This document shows positions 5,896 through 17,584 of a DNA stretch of 39,154 bases, piece by piece; position 1 is the first letter of the stretch, and every line of letters begins with the position of its first letter. Position numbers and translations under genes: made by a program. Source of the stretch: Pseudomonadota bacterium (GTDB taxonomy: Bacteria > Pseudomonadota > Gammaproteobacteria > Burkholderiales > SG8-39). The notes under the pieces were generated by a model, which worked only from the letters and a program-made list of their open reading frames with translations, was not told the origin of the DNA and did no database searches. The DNA lies in assembly GCA_021813275.1 (NCBI GenBank), contig JAKALD010000003.1, forward strand, positions 1-39,154, read 5' to 3'.

Positions 5896-6264
5896 GGGGG
5901 CGACCTGGTTTCGACGTGGGTCGCGAAGCAGCGCAGGGCATGCCGAGGACCAGATCACCTCGCAAATCCAGTCTGGAAACACACAAACGCCAACGACGAG
6001 CGTTTCGCTCTCGCGGCCTAACACCCGCGGGACGCTGCACTAGCCTGCTGATGGGCTAGGCCCTCGAAAGAGGGTGCAGCGTCATTCACATCAGCCTCTC
6101 TTCCGGGTCTGGCCGCTTGGCCCGGGGGATCCGTCGAAGCGGCTGGCCAAGCGTCAGCCCGCCGGCCGGCGGTCGCGAGGCGAGATCCAAATGGCCAGGC
6201 TAAGCATGTAGGCCTGACTGCGGAGGACTTACGGACGCGGGTTCGATTCCCGCCGCCTCCACCA
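5896..6264 (+). ncRNA. ssrA: tmRNA (one-piece)
   Basis: GGGGGCGACCTGGTTTCGACGTGG at the 5' end; tag reading frame 5989-6021 GCC AAC GAC GAG CGT TTC GCT CTC GCG GCC TAA = ANDERFALAA; 3' T-arm GCGGGTTCGATTCCCGC and CGCCTCC-A-CCA pairing with the 5' GGGGGCG. Confidence 0.96.
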
Positions 6265-6478: not shown

Positions 6479-9400
6479 CTAGGCACGCAGCACCGTGACG
6501 AACTCCGCCAGGATCGCAACACGTCCGGCGTCGTCTTCTGTGAGCACGATCGGCTGAAAATCCGGATTCGTCGGCGACAACACGACGCGCGTGTGCCGCC
6601 AGCCGCCCTCGTCGTTGCCCTCCTTCTCGGACGAGTAGCGCTTCACCGTGAACGCGCCGCCGGTCTCGGGGTCCGCAGGCCCCCGATACTGCGCGAGCAC
6701 AATCTTCCCCTGCCTCGTTCCAGCCGGTTTCGCCCGAAAAACGATGTAGTCGCCGTCTCGGATGGTCGGCTCCATCGACCGGCCAACAGCCCGGCACACG
6801 AACATCCGGTCGTCGATTCGCCCGACGCCGTCGGCCTCTACCCAGCCTTCGGGCTCCACGGCCTCGCCACTCCCGAAGTACCCTGCTGCGGCCTTAAGCG
6901 TATAGATCGGTAGCAGGGACCTGAAGGCATCGCGCCTCACGCGCTCGTCCTCTAGCGAGATCAAGCGGAGCTGCGGCTCCGGGCGGGCCCGAACCAACGC
7001 ATCGGAGAGCTCCGCCAGCGACCGGACACCCCCCGCCAGCGCGGCCTCCAACTTTCGTTGCTGCACGAACATGTAGCGCCATTGCCCATACTTAGTGGCG
7101 CTCATCTTCTCGCACCAGAGTCGTGCCGCCTCGCTCTTCAACGCCGTGTTCGGCCGAATCTCGCCTTTGGTCTCCGCGAGCCACATGACCTCGCGACCGT
7201 CCTGGTCGCGCGCAGCGATCATAAAGTCCGGGTAATACTGCCGCGGCCGGTTGCTCTCATAGTAGGTGACGGAGAACCCCAGCCGCTCGTTCTTGAAGTA
7301 GCGGACGACGTCCTTCGCGCCATCGAGGAAATCGGCGAAGCGCTTCTCGAGGTCCGTGTGACACGGCACCTTGTTGGTATGACAACGCTTGCCCTCGGCG
7401 ACGATTCCGGTCCACTGGAAGCGGCGCAGGTTCGCCGAATCGAGCCACTCAGGCGATCCGAGGATCGGCACCGCCTCGACGCCCGCCACGCCTGAGCCGC
7501 GGATCGCGTTCTCCAGCACGTCCAAAGCGGGACCTCGCCAGTACGGGATGCCGATGTCGCGCGGGTCGCTTCGCTGTCCGCCGACCTCCATCGTTACCAC
7601 GCGCCGGTCGACGTATCGCCGGCTCACCTCAAGCAGCTCCTCGAACGTGGGGCCAATGCCAAGCTCCGCCGCCTCTCCTGGGTTGGTCTGCTGGTGCAGT
7701 TCCTCGGCAATGCGGAAGGCGCTTCGCAGTGTCGGCCACTCGGCACGGAACTCCTCGAGATGCATCACGATCTCCGGTGCGCCGCCCACGACGGGTCTCA
7801 TCCGCACGTCCGGAGGCGTCTCTTTCGGGTTGATCCGGATCTGCGGCAAGTCCTCCACCCGGATCAAGTCCGCCAGCGACTCCGCCACGCCGACCGCCCA
7901 CGACCGCACGTTCGGCACCTGCACGCGGTACTTCGCCTTCTTCGGATCGGCCTCGATCCAGACCGGCTTCTGGCCCCACTCGCCGGTCTTGGGACGCTTG
8001 CGCTTCTCGACCGGGAAACCGACGAAGGGGATGCCGAAGGCGTCCACCGTCTCCTCGCTTCCCTCCGATCGTTCCTCGATCGGCTGGTTCAGCACGTCGT
8101 AGTTCGTGCGCCGCAATCCTCGACCGATGATTTGCTCGGTAAGGAGCGGCGAACCGAAGGCGCGCAGGCCGAGGATGTGCGTGACGCTCTTCACGTCCCA
8201 GCCCTCGGAGAGCATGTTCACGCTCACGATGGCGCGCACGTGCTCGCCAGGCTTTCCCTTCGAACCGACGGTGTTCACCATTTCGCGCAGCACCGCTTCG
8301 TTGCCCTTGTCGGCGTCGAAGACCTTGGAGTCGATCGGGATCGTCATCCAGCGCGTGCGGTCGTCGTCGTCCGGGTTGCGCAGCAGCTCGTACTCTCGGG
8401 TGAGGTGCTCGAAGAGCCACGCTGCACGCTGGGCACTGTCCGTCACGCAAAGGAGCACGGGGCTCGGCCCGGCCCGCATCGTCTCGAACGTGCCCGACCA
8501 CTCGTCGTGATCCTTCCTCCACGAGGAATAGATGCTCGCGATCGCGCCCTTGCAAGCGCGCAGGTACTCCTCCTTGGTCCTGGCGCCCTTCACCAGATCC
8601 CACAAGTCGAGATACACCCGCCCGTGCTCGTCCGGGTCGGGCAGGCGCACGACCTTCACCAGCCCAGACTCGAACGCGTCGTAGACCGAGAAATCGCAAA
8701 CCAGCCATTCGAAGAGCGTGCCCTCCGGCTTCGGCGAGCCGGAGCCGTACCAGGGCGTCGCCGACAGGTCGATCACCAGGCTCACGCGCGCGGCCTTGCC
8801 GATGCGCTGGAGGATCTTGCTCCACTTGATGTGTTCGGGCTCCTCACCCTTCCGGCCGCGCTTCTCGCCGTAGACGTGGTGCGCCTCGTCGTTGATCACC
8901 ACGAGGTCGCGCCATCCGCCGAGCAGCCGCCGGATCGGCGCGTTCGGGTCTTGCCGGGCACGACGCTGCATAGCGCGCAGCACCGCCTGCGGGACGAACC
9001 GCCCCTCCTCGAGCGGCACCTCGCCCTCGCCGATCCAATCCTCGCGCTTGTTCTCGAGTGGGATGCCCTGCCAGTTGCGCACCAGCACGTTCGGGTGGAA
9101 CTCCTCCCGGTACTCCGGCGGCACCATCTCGAAGCCGTCGTACAGGTTATGCTCGCCAGACGGCTCGAGCCCGTCGCCGCGCGGCTGCCCGCGCACTCTA
9201 TCGCGCACCGTAAGGTTCGGCACAAGCACCAGAAAGTTCGCCGAGAGCGACGAGCCGCTCACCTTGCGCTTGTGCAGCGTCGCCCAGGTGACGAAGAGCG
9301 CCATCACCACGGTCTTGCCGGTCCCGGTCGCGAGCTTAAGTGCGTAGCGCACCAGGTCGCCAGTCTCCGGCATCTTCCTCCGGCCCTGCACCTCGTACAG

Positions 9401-9799
9401 GTAGATGACCGTCTCGACCGCCTCCTGCTGGCAGAAGAAGAAGCGCTTGCCAGTCGCCTGGCGCTCCTCGTCGCGCTCGAACCACCACTCGAGCAGCCGC
9501 CGCGTCACCACCGCCGTGCCCTGGTAGCCGGCCTCGCGCCACGCGCGCACTTCGTTGCGGAGTTGGTTGACGAACTCGTTGAGTTCGGCAGCAGAGGCCG
9601 AGAGGTCGTCGAACAGCTGCGCTTCCTTCCCGACGACGCCGGCGATGCCGCCCTTCACGTCCTTGGCGGAGGCGAGGAAGCGCATAGAGGGACGGCGAGT
9701 CTCGACGCGCTTCGAGCGCCCGCCCGGCAGGAGCTGGTAGTGTCGGTCCGGCTCGCGGAAGGCGTCGCAGATGACGACCCGATCGACAACGTAAGCCAC
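6479..9799 (-). CDS. Type III-like restriction enzyme (SF2 helicase + PD-(D/E)XK nuclease) fused to a C-terminal LexA/UmuD-type S24 peptidase domain
   Basis: 1106 aa. Walker A ATGTGKT, DEAH box INDEAHHVYG, motif III LSATPWYG, motif VI QIIGRGLRRTNY, nuclease YYPDFMI...LAETKGE. C-terminus PIYTLKAAAGYFG...MFVCRAVGRSMEPTIRDGDYIVF...FTVKRYSS...TNPDFQPIVL is S24/LexA-like. Confidence 0.92.
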   Translation of the reverse strand: MAYVVDRVVICDAFREPDRHYQLLPGGRSKRVETRRPSMRFLASAKDVKGGIAGVVGKEAQLFDDLSASAAELNEFVNQLRNEVRAWREAGYQGTAVVTRRLLEWWFERDEERQATGKRFFFCQQEAVETVIYLYEVQGRRKMPETGDLVRYALKLATGTGKTVVMALFVTWATLHKRKVSGSSLSANFLVLVPNLTVRDRVRGQPRGDGLEPSGEHNLYDGFEMVPPEYREEFHPNVLVRNWQGIPLENKREDWIGEGEVPLEEGRFVPQAVLRAMQRRARQDPNAPIRRLLGGWRDLVVINDEAHHVYGEKRGRKGEEPEHIKWSKILQRIGKAARVSLVIDLSATPWYGSGSPKPEGTLFEWLVCDFSVYDAFESGLVKVVRLPDPDEHGRVYLDLWDLVKGARTKEEYLRACKGAIASIYSSWRKDHDEWSGTFETMRAGPSPVLLCVTDSAQRAAWLFEHLTREYELLRNPDDDDRTRWMTIPIDSKVFDADKGNEAVLREMVNTVGSKGKPGEHVRAIVSVNMLSEGWDVKSVTHILGLRAFGSPLLTEQIIGRGLRRTNYDVLNQPIEERSEGSEETVDAFGIPFVGFPVEKRKRPKTGEWGQKPVWIEADPKKAKYRVQVPNVRSWAVGVAESLADLIRVEDLPQIRINPKETPPDVRMRPVVGGAPEIVMHLEEFRAEWPTLRSAFRIAEELHQQTNPGEAAELGIGPTFEELLEVSRRYVDRRVVTMEVGGQRSDPRDIGIPYWRGPALDVLENAIRGSGVAGVEAVPILGSPEWLDSANLRRFQWTGIVAEGKRCHTNKVPCHTDLEKRFADFLDGAKDVVRYFKNERLGFSVTYYESNRPRQYYPDFMIAARDQDGREVMWLAETKGEIRPNTALKSEAARLWCEKMSATKYGQWRYMFVQQRKLEAALAGGVRSLAELSDALVRARPEPQLRLISLEDERVRRDAFRSLLPIYTLKAAAGYFGSGEAVEPEGWVEADGVGRIDDRMFVCRAVGRSMEPTIRDGDYIVFRAKPAGTRQGKIVLAQYRGPADPETGGAFTVKRYSSEKEGNDEGGWRHTRVVLSPTNPDFQPIVLTEDDAGRVAILAEFVTVLRA

Positions 9800-10049: not shown

Positions 10050-12563
10050 TCAGATCAGATCTCTAACTACCGTGGACTCGTTGCCGTACACGTCCACGAC
10101 CTTCACTGCAATCCGCTTGTACCCCCGTACCGGGAACGGCTCAGAGTCGAGCTTTAGCGAAAATTCTTCCGGGTCCACCTCCACTCTTAGCGCGGCCTTG
10201 ATGTTCGGCGCTTTCTTGAAGTCAAAGAACATCTGGCAGTCCACGAAGCAGTCGCCGTCGTAGTCCTCGTCGAGATACCACGCCGATACGTAGCCCGAGT
10301 CCGCACCCTTGTACTCGGTCGTACGGCGCTTGCGGTCGAAGAGGGCCACGCCCTTGAGCGTGACACGGAGCTGCTTCTCCTTGCCGTCCTTTGCGGCCTT
10401 AACCTCGATGTCGGGCAGCGCGAGCGGAGAAAAAAGCGTCTCCGGCTGGGTCGCCTTGAGCCCCTCGGCAAGCGTATCCGGGCGGATCATGATCAGCTCG
10501 ACCTTGACCTTGCCCCGCTTCTCGAGCTGCGACTTCACTTCGCCGACGTTAGCCTCGAAGGCCCAGCCGAGCACGTGCACCTCAAGGATGCCGGAGGCGA
10601 GCGCGTCCTGGACGGCGTCGTTAATCTGCTTGCCGGTCACTCGGCCCGAGAGCGGCCCGATAGACATTGCGATCTTCGCGTTCTCAGTCTCCGCCACCGC
10701 GTGCACGAGCCCCGTCGCACCCTGGATTGCCGCATCCCTCCGATAGAGGCGGCAGACGACCTCGATGTAGTTCTCGAGTTTTGCCGCCTCACCGATCCCC
10801 GGCTCCCGGACGACGTAACCCTTCCAGTCCTCGACGGAGTAGCGGCCGAGGGACATGACTTCGAAGGGCCCTGTGACCCGGAGGGCAGATTCGTCCACCT
10901 CTGGCTTGTCTACCAACAAGAGATCGCCTGTCTCCCGCTCGTTCGAGACCGCACCCAACGTCACCTTTTCTGGCGACTCATAGACAAATCCGCTCCCCAA
11001 ACCCTGACCCCAGGTCTTGAAGTGCGGGAACACGGCAGCCAGAATTGCCTTTCGGGCGACGTTGATCGCAACTCGAGAAGTGTCACATGTGATCCAGCGC
11101 CTCCCCCATCGTTCACTGCATAACGCAGTCACGCCGGATCCGCAGGTAATGTCCAGCACCAAATCTCCAGGGCCGGTGGTCATGTGTATACAGCGCTCCA
11201 CTACCTTCTCCGACGTTTGCACAGCGTAGCGCTTGCCACTTGCGCCCTGAGTGTCGCTCCAGAGGTTCGTTACCTCCATGTACGGAAAGTCATCAAAGAA
11301 GAACACGTACTGAAGGCTGTCGCCTGGGGCCTCCAGTCGACGCTGCTCTATCAGGCGCTTCATGCCAGCCGGATTAGTCTTCCAGCTGTGGCCTTCGCGC
11401 GGTGAGAACTTCCTCCCTTCAAACTTTACGTCGAAGACACACGAAGGTGTCAGGCCCGACGAATTCAAGTCAATCAGGCGGTAGATCTTGGCTCCGTCCG
11501 GAAGTGACGTCGGGTCCTCCCGTTCTTCATCCGACATTGACCGGCGACTGCCGTCCGGAAGTTCAACACGAGTAAACTGCGTACCGGATCCTACGCCTCG
11601 GTCGGTGTAGATCTTTTGGTAGCGGACCTGTGGCTTGTCCTTCGAGTACCACAGCAGATAGTCGCAAATGCCTGCGAGTAACGTATTGCGAAGCGGAATC
11701 TTCGTACGGAAGGAAATCTGAGCAACGAAGTTGGACGCACCGAACACTTCGTCCATCAAGGCCCGTGCCCTGTGGACGTGCTCGTCCCCAATCTGAACGA
11801 ACACGCTGCCGCTGCCCCGGAGCAACTCCCGGCAGAGATACAGCCGCTCTTCGAGATACGAGAGCCAAGAATGAACCCCAAGCGCCCATGTATCTCGAAA
11901 TGCCTTGATGGTCAGGACATCGTCGGCTGATTCGTTTTCCTTGTTCTTCGTCGAATCCACCCGCTGCTGGAAGTTCGAGTCGTACTTGATGCCATACGGC
12001 GGGTCGATGTAGATCATCTGCACTTTGCCGCGTAGGTTCTCGTAGTGGAGCAGCGACTCCATCACGTGCAGCGAGTCGCCGCAGATAAGCTTATTCTTCC
12101 AACCCTCCTCGTGGGTGTAGAACTCGACGCGCTTGCTCCGGTCGGTCTCGCGCAGCGTCTTCTCGAGGTCGGCGAAGAGGTGCCCCTGGCGCGCCGCACC
12201 TGACTTCTCCTCGGCCGCCCGGCGCGCGCGCTCGATGATTTGCGCGATGCGCGACTCGGACACGATCTCGTTGCGCTGGAGCGGCAGCACCGGCACCTCG
12301 CGCCGGTTGCGCTTGCCCGCCCAGAAGAGCACCGGGTCCGCCGCCGGGTCCATGTCCACGACCACCGGCCGCTCGTCGCCCTCCGGCAGCTTGCCGACGT
12401 GAATGGCCTTGCTCCAGCCGTTGTCCATCGGCAGCGTCACCATCTGGTCCTCGGCCGGCAGGAGAGACGTGTGCCCGGTCTCGGGCGCGCGCGGCTCCTT
12501 GATGTCCTCGTAGGTGTAGCGGGTGACCTTCTTCTCAGCCTTGGGCTTCGGGGTGCGGGCCAT
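10050..12563 (-). CDS. Site-specific DNA methyltransferase (type III Mod-like, DPPY class)
   Basis: Start placed at ATG 12561-12563 (MARTPKPKAEKKVTRYTYEDIKEPR...). Catalytic motif IV MIYIDPPYGIKYDSNF (DPPY at 11994-12005) precedes SAM motif I VLDITCGSGVTAL, i.e. beta-class order. Confidence 0.92.
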   Translation of the reverse strand: MARTPKPKAEKKVTRYTYEDIKEPRAPETGHTSLLPAEDQMVTLPMDNGWSKAIHVGKLPEGDERPVVVDMDPAADPVLFWAGKRNRREVPVLPLQRNEIVSESRIAQIIERARRAAEEKSGAARQGHLFADLEKTLRETDRSKRVEFYTHEEGWKNKLICGDSLHVMESLLHYENLRGKVQMIYIDPPYGIKYDSNFQQRVDSTKNKENESADDVLTIKAFRDTWALGVHSWLSYLEERLYLCRELLRGSGSVFVQIGDEHVHRARALMDEVFGASNFVAQISFRTKIPLRNTLLAGICDYLLWYSKDKPQVRYQKIYTDRGVGSGTQFTRVELPDGSRRSMSDEEREDPTSLPDGAKIYRLIDLNSSGLTPSCVFDVKFEGRKFSPREGHSWKTNPAGMKRLIEQRRLEAPGDSLQYVFFFDDFPYMEVTNLWSDTQGASGKRYAVQTSEKVVERCIHMTTGPGDLVLDITCGSGVTALCSERWGRRWITCDTSRVAINVARKAILAAVFPHFKTWGQGLGSGFVYESPEKVTLGAVSNERETGDLLLVDKPEVDESALRVTGPFEVMSLGRYSVEDWKGYVVREPGIGEAAKLENYIEVVCRLYRRDAAIQGATGLVHAVAETENAKIAMSIGPLSGRVTGKQINDAVQDALASGILEVHVLGWAFEANVGEVKSQLEKRGKVKVELIMIRPDTLAEGLKATQPETLFSPLALPDIEVKAAKDGKEKQLRVTLKGVALFDRKRRTTEYKGADSGYVSAWYLDEDYDGDCFVDCQMFFDFKKAPNIKAALRVEVDPEEFSLKLDSEPFPVRGYKRIAVKVVDVYGNESTVVRDLI

Positions 12564-12580
12564 ATCGGTCTTGTCCCTCG

Positions 12581-15340
12581 TCACTTGGTTCCGGCAACGG
12601 CTCGGCCGGTAGTGCACATGCCACGATAGTCGCAGGCTCCGCACTTCTTCGGCCCCGCCACGGTCGGCAGCGAAGCCGTGCGAAGTGCCTCGGCCGCTTC
12701 GCGGACCTTCGACTTCACGTCTGCGATGAAGTCGTCGTCCACCGACCGCGGCTTGCGCTTGCGCTCGTCTAGCTCGTAGATCTCGACGTAGTCCGGCCGC
12801 CGGCCGGTGAGGTCCTGGTAGCCCAGCGCGTACACGTGGAGCTGCGCCTCGGTGACCTCTTCGGGCTGGGCACGGTCGGTCGACTTGAGATCGACGATCG
12901 TGGTTTCTCCGGTGTCGATGCGACGGACCAAATCGATGCGCCCGACGATGCTTACGCCGTCGCCGAGACTCACCTCGATCTGCTTCTCCGAGAACTCGAT
13001 CTTGTCGAACAACGCCGCGTTGTCGGCCAGGTAGTCGCGGAGCACGCGTTCGGCCGTCGCCTCGAGCTCCTGCCGGAGCGCCGGGTAAGCGTAAGGCGCG
13101 TGCAGATGCGTCTCGACCAGCCGCGGCACCTCGCTCGCGTTGGCCACGTCGCCGCGCAGGGCGCGAGCGTGCACCTCTGCCAACGCGTCATGCAGCGACT
13201 TGCCGTAGCCCAGCGCCTCGTGGATCGGCGCATTGAAGCCGTACAGGATGCGCAGCTTGAACTGGTAGGGACACTCGAAGAAGTACTTCAGGTCGGAGAA
13301 GGAAAAGACGACGTTGGCGACGCCAGCGCGCGGTCTCGGCGGGAGGCGCTTGCGCGTCGAGTAGTCGGGCGCGCGGCGTTTGACGTACTTCGAGGCGAGG
13401 ATGTCGTCCCAGAACTGCGAGCGCTTCTGGAAGAGCTGGTTGCCTGGGATCGGCGCCCAAGTCAGGTGCAGGAATTTCTGGCTACGCGTCATGGCGACGT
13501 AGAAGAGCCGCCGTTCATCCTCGATCGTCCCCTCGAAGCGTACTTGCCCCTTGATGCCGGCACGCGGCAGCAGATGCCAAACATTCCGCCCGCCTGGCTT
13601 CTTGGCGGGAAACCGGTTCTTGAGCAGTGCAGGCACGAACACCACCGGCCACTGCATCCCCTTGGCCTGATGGATGGTCATGATCCGCACGGCGTCGAGG
13701 TTGGCGTACTGATTGTCCTGCCAGCCCTCAGGGTAGGCGTCCTCGGCGCGGTACTGCAGGAAGTCGGCGAACGAGCCGTACTTCTCGACCGGCTTCGACT
13801 GGAAGTGGATCGTCTCGAAGTCCGAGATGACCTGGCTGAACTTGCCGAGGTTGTAGAAAACCACTTCGCCACGGCCGCCTGGAATCAGCTCCTCGCGGAC
13901 ACCGGCCTGCTCGAGGAACGCTAAGAAGACGCGCTGGATCGAGTACTGTCCCCAGCGCCTCTGGTCGGGATCGATCAACGCCGCCTTGGCAGCGGCAGCA
14001 CCCGCGATCGCCTGATCGAGTGCTGCCGGTTCGAGGCCGAGACCGGCGGACTCCCAGGCGGCTTTCAAGGCTGCGGCGTCCACTCCCGGTCGATCGGCGA
14101 TGAAGTAGAACAGCTGCCGGGCAGCTCCCGCCTCGGCAGTGCCGAACAGATTGGTCATGCCGGTGACGACGAACGGGATTCCGGCCGCCCGAAGAGCTCG
14201 CGTGATGGGCTCGGCGTTCGCCTTCACGCTGCGGAGCAAGACCGCCATGTCGGACCACGACAGGCCACGCTCGACCTCGTCCTCCTTGAACGCGACGCCG
14301 CGGAGAGCTCGAATCGTCTCGACGATGTGCCGGGCCTCGGCATCCGGATCGGCGAACGACAGTGCCACGACGTCGCCGCTCTCGTAGGGCTGCGCGCCGG
14401 TCGGTTTCATCGCCTTCGTGAGCCGCGCGCCGTTCTGCTCGATGAAGCCGCGCGCCGTCTCAATCACGCCCTCGCATGAGCGGAAGTTCTCCTCCAGAGG
14501 AATCTGCTCAACGGCCGGGTAACGTCTCTCAAACGTGAGGATGTTCTCGACGTCGCTGCCGCGCCACTGGTAGATAGTCTGGTCGTCGTCGCCGACCACG
14601 CAGATGCGCGCCCCCAGTTCGTGCAGCGACCAGACGATCGCTTCCTGCACGGGGTTGACGTCCTGATACTCGTCCACGATGACGTACTTCACGCGCTCGG
14701 CGACCCGTGCTCGCAGGCCCTGGTCGTTGGTGAGGAGCGTCACAGCCTCTTCGAGGATCGACGAGTAATCCAGGTAGCTCTTGTCATCGAGCAGCTTCTG
14801 GTAGGCCGGGAGGCCGTTGAGTACGGAGCAGCCGTTGAGCTGAGCATCGTCGCGCTCCGCTTCTCGCAGGATCGACAGCGCAGTGACGTAGTGCTTTGTG
14901 TCGAGATAGCGCCTCAGCGCGGCACCGTTGAGGTCTGTAGACGTGGTGAGCCCGCTCTTGCTGCTGTTCCGATCGACGAAGAGCCCCTGCTGGACCTCGT
15001 TCAGGACCTCGAACTTGAGGTGCTTCGGCGATTCGGACTTCAGAAGCTCCAAGCAAAAGGCGTGGATCGTGCCGACGAACATCTCTGCCATCCCGGGCAT
15101 GTCGCCAAGCGCCTGGCGGGTGCGCGTGACGATCCGCTCCTTCAGTTCGGCCGCGGCCTTGTCCGTGAAGGTGAAGGCGATGATGTTGCGCGGGGCAAGC
15201 GAGTCTTCTCTGCCCGGCGTCAGCAAATGGACCACGCGCCGTGCGACGACCTCGGTCTTTCCCGAGCCGGCGCAAGCGATGAGCTGCAGGTTGCGGCCAT
15301 CGAACTCAATGGCCTTCTTCTGTGACGCGGTGAGTTTCAT
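12581..15340 (-). CDS. UvrD/PcrA-like SF1A helicase with C-terminal PD-(D/E)XK nuclease and putative Fe-S cysteine cluster
   Basis: LIACAGSGKTEVVARR, VDEYQDVNPVQE, VGDDDQTIYQWRG, MTIHQAKGMQWPVVFVP, RRLFYVAMTRS; C-terminal FFECPYQFKLR...IVGRIDLV...TTIVDLKST...QLHVYALGY...KKCGACDYRGMC. Confidence 0.93.
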   Translation of the reverse strand: MKLTASQKKAIEFDGRNLQLIACAGSGKTEVVARRVVHLLTPGREDSLAPRNIIAFTFTDKAAAELKERIVTRTRQALGDMPGMAEMFVGTIHAFCLELLKSESPKHLKFEVLNEVQQGLFVDRNSSKSGLTTSTDLNGAALRRYLDTKHYVTALSILREAERDDAQLNGCSVLNGLPAYQKLLDDKSYLDYSSILEEAVTLLTNDQGLRARVAERVKYVIVDEYQDVNPVQEAIVWSLHELGARICVVGDDDQTIYQWRGSDVENILTFERRYPAVEQIPLEENFRSCEGVIETARGFIEQNGARLTKAMKPTGAQPYESGDVVALSFADPDAEARHIVETIRALRGVAFKEDEVERGLSWSDMAVLLRSVKANAEPITRALRAAGIPFVVTGMTNLFGTAEAGAARQLFYFIADRPGVDAAALKAAWESAGLGLEPAALDQAIAGAAAAKAALIDPDQRRWGQYSIQRVFLAFLEQAGVREELIPGGRGEVVFYNLGKFSQVISDFETIHFQSKPVEKYGSFADFLQYRAEDAYPEGWQDNQYANLDAVRIMTIHQAKGMQWPVVFVPALLKNRFPAKKPGGRNVWHLLPRAGIKGQVRFEGTIEDERRLFYVAMTRSQKFLHLTWAPIPGNQLFQKRSQFWDDILASKYVKRRAPDYSTRKRLPPRPRAGVANVVFSFSDLKYFFECPYQFKLRILYGFNAPIHEALGYGKSLHDALAEVHARALRGDVANASEVPRLVETHLHAPYAYPALRQELEATAERVLRDYLADNAALFDKIEFSEKQIEVSLGDGVSIVGRIDLVRRIDTGETTIVDLKSTDRAQPEEVTEAQLHVYALGYQDLTGRRPDYVEIYELDERKRKPRSVDDDFIADVKSKVREAAEALRTASLPTVAGPKKCGACDYRGMCTTGRAVAGTK

Positions 15341-16028: not shown

Positions 16029-16661
16029 ATGCTGCTCAGCAACGAAGTAACCCACGCAACCGACCTCGACCTGCTCACCGTTGTCCTCGGCAACCGCAGC
16101 ACAGCCGGAGCACTGCTCAAGAAGGCCGGCGGATCGCTCTCCAACCTGCTCCACGCCATACCTTCCGAGAACGGGGATCTTTTCTGCGCCCAAGGCTCGA
16201 GCGCCTACGCGCCGGGCCCGATCGCCAAACTACAAGCAGCACGCGAGCTTGCAGCGCCCGGCATCGCGGAGAATCTGAGGGGACGGGATTGTCTGACGAG
16301 CCCGGGAGCGGTGCGGGACTTCCTCAAGCTACGGCTTGCGGGGCGGCCACACGAATTCTTTGTCTGTATCCAGCTCGACGCGCAGCATCGCGTAATCGCG
16401 ATCGAAGAGCTTTTCCGAGGGACACTGACGCAGACGAGCGTTTATCCGCGGGAAGTCGTCAAGGCCTCGCTACGGGCGAACACCGCAGCGGTGATCTTTG
16501 CGCACAATCACCCCTCGGGCGTCGCGCAGCCGAGCCAAGCCGACGAGCTCCTGACCCGCACGCTCAAGGAAGCCCTGGCCCTGGTGGACGTCAAAGTCCT
16601 CGATCACTTCGTCGTCGCAGGCACGAGCACGCTTTCCTTCGCCGAGCGCGGCCTGCTCTGA
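16029..16661 (+). CDS. RadC-like JAB/MPN domain protein
   Basis: [96 protein letters not shown] motif. Confidence 0.93.
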
Positions 16662-17007: not shown

Positions 17008-17301
17008 CTACGCCGCGCGCTTCTCGATCGGCCTAACCCCCAGACGAAGCCCGGTAGCGGCAAGTAGCGCACTGAGACTTCGAAGTTCCGGATTTCCCGC
17101 CTTCGAGAGCATTCTGTACACCGCCTCACGAGTGAGTCCCGCGCGACGTGCCACTTCCGCAATGCCGCCCTGCGCCTGCGCGATCTGACGAAGTGCCAGC
17201 AGGATCGCGCCTTGGTCGCCGTCCTCGAGCACGGCCTCGAGGTAGCCGGCAGCATGAGCCGGGTCCTTCAGCTGGTCGATGAGCCAGGGCTCGTACGGCA
17301 C
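17008..17301 (-). CDS. HigA-family addiction-module antitoxin (HTH)
   Basis: VPYEPWLIDQLKDPAHAAGYLEAVLEDGDQGAILLALRQIAQAQGGIAEVARRAGLTREAVYRMLSKAGNPELRSLSALLAATGLRLGVRP. GTG at 17299-17301, one base after the toxin stop. Confidence 0.88.
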   Translation of the reverse strand: MPYEPWLIDQLKDPAHAAGYLEAVLEDGDQGAILLALRQIAQAQGGIAEVARRAGLTREAVYRMLSKAGNPELRSLSALLAATGLRLGVRPIEKRAA

Positions 17302-17302
17302 G

Positions 17303-17584
17303 CTAGCGGGAACCGCGCGGCCTTTGCCGCGCGGTGCGCGCCTTGTAGTCCTTGAAGTACTCTTTCGCACGCTCGATGTCCTTATCCTGCGTCCTCTTGT
17401 CCCCTCCGCGAAGGAGAAGCACCACCACCTGGCCGAGCCGCGCGAAATAGACGCGGTAGCCCGGGCCCCAATCGATCCTCAGTTCCAGCACGCCTTCGCC
17501 CACCGGCTCGGTGTCGCCGAAGTTCCCTTGTGCCAGACGCGCAAGCCGCGCCTCTATCCGGCTGACCGCTTGCACGTCCCGCAA
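17303..17584 (-). CDS. RelE/ParE (HigB, Gp49-like) family toxin; N-terminus uncertain
   Basis: RIEARLARLAQGNFGDTEPVGEGVLELRIDWGPGYRVYFARLGQVVVLLLRGGDKRTQDKDIERAKEYFKDY. The coding-like frame extends upstream to 17659 (VTITLEIYFYQDAEGRQPVRDWLLGL) but has no canonical start there. Confidence 0.83.
   Translation of the reverse strand: MRDVQAVSRIEARLARLAQGNFGDTEPVGEGVLELRIDWGPGYRVYFARLGQVVVLLLRGGDKRTQDKDIERAKEYFKDYKARTARQRPRGSR

Follow-up and report, generated by a model that had tools for sequence, protein, structure and literature searches.

Why should a restriction subunit end in a self-cleaving peptidase domain of the type known from LexA and UmuD? The question is raised by an operon on contig JAKALD010000003.1 of a gammaproteobacterial genome (Pseudomonadota bacterium, lineage SG8-39; GenBank assembly GCA_021813275.1), of which positions 1 to 39,154 of the forward strand, that is, the whole stretch of DNA analysed here, are hereafter designated the window. 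An initial annotation had recognised a complete S24 domain at the C-terminus of a 1106-aa Res-like protein, and we have followed this domain through its anatomy, its predicted fold and its occurrence on other enzymes.

Domain architecture of Res-S24

The protein in question (hereafter designated Res-S24; 6479..9799, minus strand; 1106 aa, GTG start) is an SF2 helicase-nuclease restriction subunit with a C-terminal S24 module. Its N-terminal part contains a ResIII helicase region (residues 123-349; 8753..9433, minus strand; PF04851, 3.2e-11) with the Walker A motif ATGTGKT, DEAH and SATP, followed by a Helicase_C stretch (residues 520-563; 8111..8242, minus strand) in which motif VI, QIIGRGLRR, was read directly, the PF00271 match of 0.0018 being below the curated cut-off. 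Further downstream is a PD-(D/E)xK nuclease domain (residues 810-899; 7103..7372, minus strand) with the motifs YPDF...AETKGE and a match to PF19778 (RE_endonuc, 8.5e-4) that is likewise below the curated cut-off. Because these helicase and nuclease motifs are all intact, Res-S24 looks like a working restriction subunit. In PADLOC it matched REase_III (1.2e-12), and its score of 581 bits against NF046055 (BPTD_3080 family), for which the curated cut-off is 800, makes it a relative rather than a member of that family. Since, moreover, no match was found by phmmer between Res and solved structures, the enzyme is called type III-like rather than type III. A model of full-length Res reached a pLDDT of only 30 from an alignment of 3 sequences and was too poor for fold comparison with EcoP15I Res.

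The translation gives the C-terminus quoted in the initial annotation, and the Pfam profile Peptidase_S24 (PF00717) matched Res-S24 with 39.1 bits (6.8e-10) against a gathering score of 23.3, and the isolated domain with 6.8e-12. The module was found to begin near residue 963 (residues 963-1106; 6482..6913, minus strand), slightly upstream of the interval originally given, and its assignment draws on the Pfam match, conservation, AlphaFold2 and Foldseek. The candidate active-site residues are located as first proposed, namely, the scissile bond A972-G973 in LKAAA/GYFG (cut at the slash; 6881..6886, minus strand), the nucleophile S1008 in GRSM (6776..6778, minus strand) and the general base K1053 in TVKRY (6641..6643, minus strand). 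The distance of 35 residues from G973 to S1008 bears out the likeness to UmuD that had been pointed out, in which 35 residues lie between the cleavage-site Gly and Ser. Cleavage at the candidate bond is predicted to yield fragments of 110.6 and 14.6 kDa, replacing the earlier estimate of ~107 and ~15 kDa.

The module shares with LexA, UmuD and lambda-type CI the S24 fold and the Ser-Lys dyad, and with UmuD the Ala-Gly site 35 residues before Ser, but differs from all three in its Ser-Lys spacing (45 residues versus 37) and in an additional YxSEK...WxH stretch. The helix-turn-helix (HTH) DNA-binding domain that forms the N-terminal part of LexA and CI is absent, its place being taken, according to Pfam, by the ResIII helicase and PD-(D/E)xK nuclease; lacking the HTH, Res-S24 does not count as a repressor of the LexA or CI type. 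In contrast to those proteins, the part that would be regulated by the putative autocleavage is a restriction helicase-nuclease.

The restriction-modification operon and its surroundings

Res-S24 belongs to a three-gene restriction-modification (R-M) operon, of which the first gene (12581..15340, minus strand) encodes a UvrD-type helicase with a C-terminal PD-(D/E)xK (Cas4/RecB-like) nuclease, as assigned by Pfam. Next to Res-S24 lies the gene for Mod, a type III-like DNA methyltransferase (10050..12644, minus strand), whose longest open reading frame starts from GTG, an ATG 27 codons in being the likelier start. Mod matched MTase_III of PADLOC (3.3e-129), N6_N4_Mtase of Pfam (9.7e-30) and EcoP15I Mod (3.9e-16). 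A Mod gene adjoining Res, and a Res with a ResIII helicase followed by a PD-(D/E)xK nuclease, are common to the window operon and the type III R-M systems EcoP15I and EcoP1I, whereas the S24 module and the UvrD-PD-(D/E)xK gene are extra to the window operon.

A full-length Res-S24 with 87% identity is encoded in the same three-gene order in a metagenome-assembled genome of Rhodanobacteraceae (locus L012). The window operon follows closely on the 3' end of the tmRNA gene (ssrA; 5896..6264, plus strand; ARAGORN), a gene that is a common integration site. Because the L012 locus has the same gene order and no tmRNA was found there, the R-M operon with Res-S24 appears to be mobile; a direct repeat of the tmRNA end, as an island border, was not found in the window. 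Adjoining the operon, and likewise past the tmRNA gene, are genes for a RadC-like JAB protein (16029-16661) and a HigA-type (dnstrm_HI1420) antitoxin (17008-17370), both typical island cargo. Mod of the window (10050-12644) and that of L012 (2514-5126) are 72% identical, compared with 87% for Res, and the middle of Mod is devoid of a DNA-level match; the comparison suggests that the recognition specificity of Mod may have changed between the two loci. The host genome encodes LexA, ClpX and RecA, the last as a fragment at a contig edge, and no LexA box of the form CTGT-N8-ACAG was found in the window.

Predicted fold and conservation of the S24 module

AlphaFold2 modelling of residues 955-1106, for which the window was aligned with homologues from other genomes (69 sequences in all), gave a pLDDT of 88.6 and a pTM of 0.84. 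The comparison with LexA and UmuD structures suggested by the initial annotation was carried out with Foldseek, in which the best solved-structure match was LexA 1jhe (E-value 5.7e-7; TM 0.84 by target; rmsd 2.5 A), followed by the LexA-RecA complexes 8gms, 8trg and 8s7g, and also by CI-RecA complexes and UmuD'. The entry 1jhe is a mutant of E. coli LexA in whose structure the cleavage loop is docked into the active site. The predicted structure of the module thus comes nearest to the cleavable form of LexA and to the RecA-bound forms of LexA and CI. The assignment of the C-terminal part of Res to peptidase family S24 is well supported by the sequence profile, the predicted fold and the dyad alike.

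The conservation figures come from the best 80 of 361 relatives, a set biased towards the query, of which 79 modules could be aligned; the pattern used in the genome scan held none of Ser, Lys and the cleavage site, while the tblastn ranking favours close relatives. Within this set, both Ser and Lys were retained in every module (79/79 each), and the spacing between them was 45 in 77/79. The P1 residue was Ala in 77/79 modules and Cys in 2/79, and the P1' residue was Gly in 58, Ser in 11 and Thr in 10 of the 79. Also invariant across the aligned modules were W986, F1000, M1009, I1013, F1021, G1027 and E1099, and the YxSEK...WxH stretch is conserved specifically in this family. Between Res of the window and that of L012, dN/dS was 0.061 for the S24 part, 0.105 for the helicase and 0.033 for the nuclease domain. 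Judged from these values, the S24 module is under purifying selection, by which its putative catalytic and cleavage-site residues are kept. A chance or pseudogene origin is ruled out by the 87% identity and common three-gene operon of L012 together with the low dN/dS of the S24 part. In a more distant helicase-fused S24 (L008, minus strand, last 130 aa), Ser is kept and Lys is apparently replaced by Arg, so that this copy is possibly catalytically dead.

Occurrence of the module on diverse enzymes

A profile of the S24 domain detected 361 relatives in 84,980 species genomes, and the best 80 of them span at least 18 named phyla. The search for the same fusion elsewhere, which the initial annotation had advised, thereby led to S24 modules on many other restriction enzymes. 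When the non-module part of each protein was clustered and representatives were scanned with Pfam and PADLOC, the hosts among the best 80 of 361 were found to comprise HsdR of type I (24), SLFN-g3 helicases (19), DruE/MrfA-like MZB helicases (9), type ISP enzymes (8), EcoEI-type HsdR (3), the Res class of the window (3, window included), type III-like DEAD proteins (2), HIT-PLD-DEAD type IV-like proteins (2) and HNH proteins (2), the rest being fragments or unassigned. The partners of the module are ATP-dependent restriction enzymes and defence helicases. An intact open reading frame in which 200 aa or more precede the module was present in 60 cases of this set, and the module was usually C-terminal among the relatives examined. 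The Druantia DruE, type ISP, HsdR and SLFN-g3 hosts (L053, L031, L013, L026 and others) share with Res of the window both the module and its invariant residues, although their effector enzymes are different.

Several individual proteins may be recorded here. The DruE-like (Druantia) helicase at L053:1-3465 combines a match to a DUF559/MTES_1575-type nuclease with a C-terminal S24 module. Two proteins of Verrucomicrobiota (L052:609-2486 and L058:6618-8462) are HNH_4 proteins of ~620 aa with an S24 module, Pfam having been run on the former, for which no PADLOC match was found. At L002:5977-8447 and L067:6139-8441, an SLFN-g3 helicase and an S24 module are encoded in two overlapping frames, reflecting a frameshift, a sequencing error or separate genes.

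The module was absent from 50,697 phage records, was found once among 72,556 plasmid records, and gave a strong match in 6 of 321 sampled genomes of the same class. Capture of a phage-repressor fragment by readthrough is ruled out, since no match was obtained in the phage records, viral contigs gave only ~30% matches, and the module forms a family of its own.

Comparison with relatives of the host enzymes pointed to an add-on. Thus, an HsdR relative (H17, 56% identical) and a type ISP relative (H32, 55% identical) both stop where the module begins, and the S24 search of the same class sample revealed no S24 part on the Res relatives present in 24 other genomes of the class. In three EcoEI-type HsdR proteins (L075:1999-4740, L086 and L090:7824-10556), the module is internal, being inserted in the HSDR_N nuclease domain between its first helix and the catalytic GRADYVL...IEAKK, so that a cut would split this domain; an empty insertion site was found in a cyanobacterial plasmid copy (L179:2501-3637) that is 79% identical over the aligned N-terminal part to the EcoEI-type HsdR. 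At least 22 changes of enzyme class are required on the tree of the modules. A single ancient fusion is ruled out for type ISP (AU p 3e-9) and SLFN-g3 (AU p 4e-6), whose modules do not form one clade each, and a single origin of the module on the three ResIII proteins was not rejected (p 0.19). Near-identical modules occur on different enzyme classes (L036/L046, HsdR; L041/L055, type ISP), a sign of recent module exchange. Collectively, the sequence comparisons indicate that the S24 module has been added to enzymes already complete in its absence, and repeatedly exchanged between enzyme classes as a putative mobile regulatory part.

A putative damage-triggered switch

The reading that we favour, and to which we give an even chance, is that the module is a portable self-cleavage switch on a type III-like restriction subunit, most likely a damage-triggered off switch that amounts to built-in restriction alleviation. 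Intact Res-S24 would restrict foreign DNA. On damage to the host chromosome, also by Res itself, for example before full host methylation, RecA-ssDNA filaments would stabilise the cleavable conformation, and S1008 and K1053 would cut A972-G973, giving a ~111-kDa restriction fragment with the new C-terminus LKAAA. Cleavage leaves LexA with a similar C-terminus (RVAA in the LexA of the same genome), known to present a signal to ClpXP, and the cleaved subunit of Res-S24 would presumably be removed or be unable to assemble. We infer that Res-S24 cleaves itself, that RecA is the trigger, that the switch turns restriction off rather than on, and that ClpXP degrades the product.

As for the direction, the comparative evidence leans towards off. 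The relatives are complete without the module and are presumably active as they stand, which speaks for a brake rather than an activator; in EcoEI-type HsdR, a cut would run through the nuclease; and LexA-type new ends (xAA) are known signals for ClpXP, by which HsdR is removed in restriction alleviation. Removal of HsdR by ClpXP under DNA damage is an established route to avoid self-restriction (PMC4231737, PMC12707154), and exposure of ClpX signals by LexA cleavage is described in PMC10584840, which cites Neher 2003. The outcome proposed to be shared with the ClpXP-dependent alleviation of EcoKI is the post-translational loss of the restriction subunit when host DNA is endangered. The analogy holds in outcome only, because the alleviation of EcoKI does not belong to the SOS response (PMC11109961); the degron of EcoKI HsdR has not been found (PMC4231737, PMC11109961), whereas Res-S24 would carry its own sensor. 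EcoKI HsdR is not known to carry an S24 part. Some further features speak against the off switch, among them the lack of a CTGT-N8-ACAG LexA box in the window. At P1', where LexA and UmuD have Gly, 21/79 modules have Ser or Thr, which is unusual. The three Ala residues in front of the cut may only mirror the specificity of the peptidase, signal peptidases, which are related, preferring A-x-A. The degron idea also cannot be general, because the new C-terminus in the three EcoEI-type proteins would fall on the small N-terminal piece.

The same anatomy of Pfam match, dyad and fold model would also fit a switch of the opposite sign, in which the enzyme is kept inactive by the intact S24 part until RecA filaments, formed on phage DNA or on damaged DNA, cause a cleavage that frees the active nuclease, resulting in damage-activated restriction or cell suicide. 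It is established that cleavage of this kind activates UmuD rather than inactivating it, and many of the partners are defence enzymes that would be harmful if unregulated. However, close relatives of the host enzymes do without the S24 part, so that the architecture needs no activation step, and a cut in EcoEI-type HsdR would divide the nuclease domain; we regard activation as unlikely. It seems rather improbable that the trigger is something other than RecA, be it a phage protein, a DNA-bound translocating state or an alkaline or nucleotide signal, cutting or reshaping the module as a phage- or conflict-sensing element. A mechanical or DNA-state trigger is conceivable, most partners being DNA translocases, and YxSEK...WxH together with the invariant W986, F1000, F1021 and E1099 could form a special interface; yet LexA and CI bound to RecA are among the closest structures, and nothing was found that links the module to a phage protein, the phage records surveyed being free of it.

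The least probable reading takes the module as a part for assembly or dimerisation, or as a constitutive maturation site, that cuts at once during folding or never and has no switching role. The C-terminal S24 domains of LexA and CI are established to dimerise as well, and the Arg at the Lys position of L008 implies that non-catalytic use may exist nearby. A pure assembly part, however, would not need Ser, Lys and a small P1 residue, which are kept in 79/79 modules on at least eight enzyme types. With the off switch as the preferred reading, its extension to the whole family, in which we place somewhat less than even confidence, is that one S24 family serves as an exchangeable RecA-sensing safety catch across type I, ISP, III and IV-like, DruE-like and SLFN-g3 enzymes, in which self-cleavage would destroy the enzyme as a direct response to self-damage, with no need for transcription.

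Significance

S24 peptidases and restriction enzymes are each well known, and a dedicated S24 family recurrently placed on restriction enzymes was not found in the open-licence literature, where we met no description of S24 domains on such enzymes; a prior description elsewhere is possible. A 2025 review of R-M systems mentions LexA and S24 nowhere. If cleavage is shown, a new regulatory principle is plausible. How cells protect their own genome from restriction enzymes is a long-standing question, to which a self-cleaving damage sensor inside the enzyme, exchanged between classes, would, if true, be a simple general answer. LexA-type autocleavage would then extend beyond repressors and polymerase subunits to the nuclease effectors of immunity.
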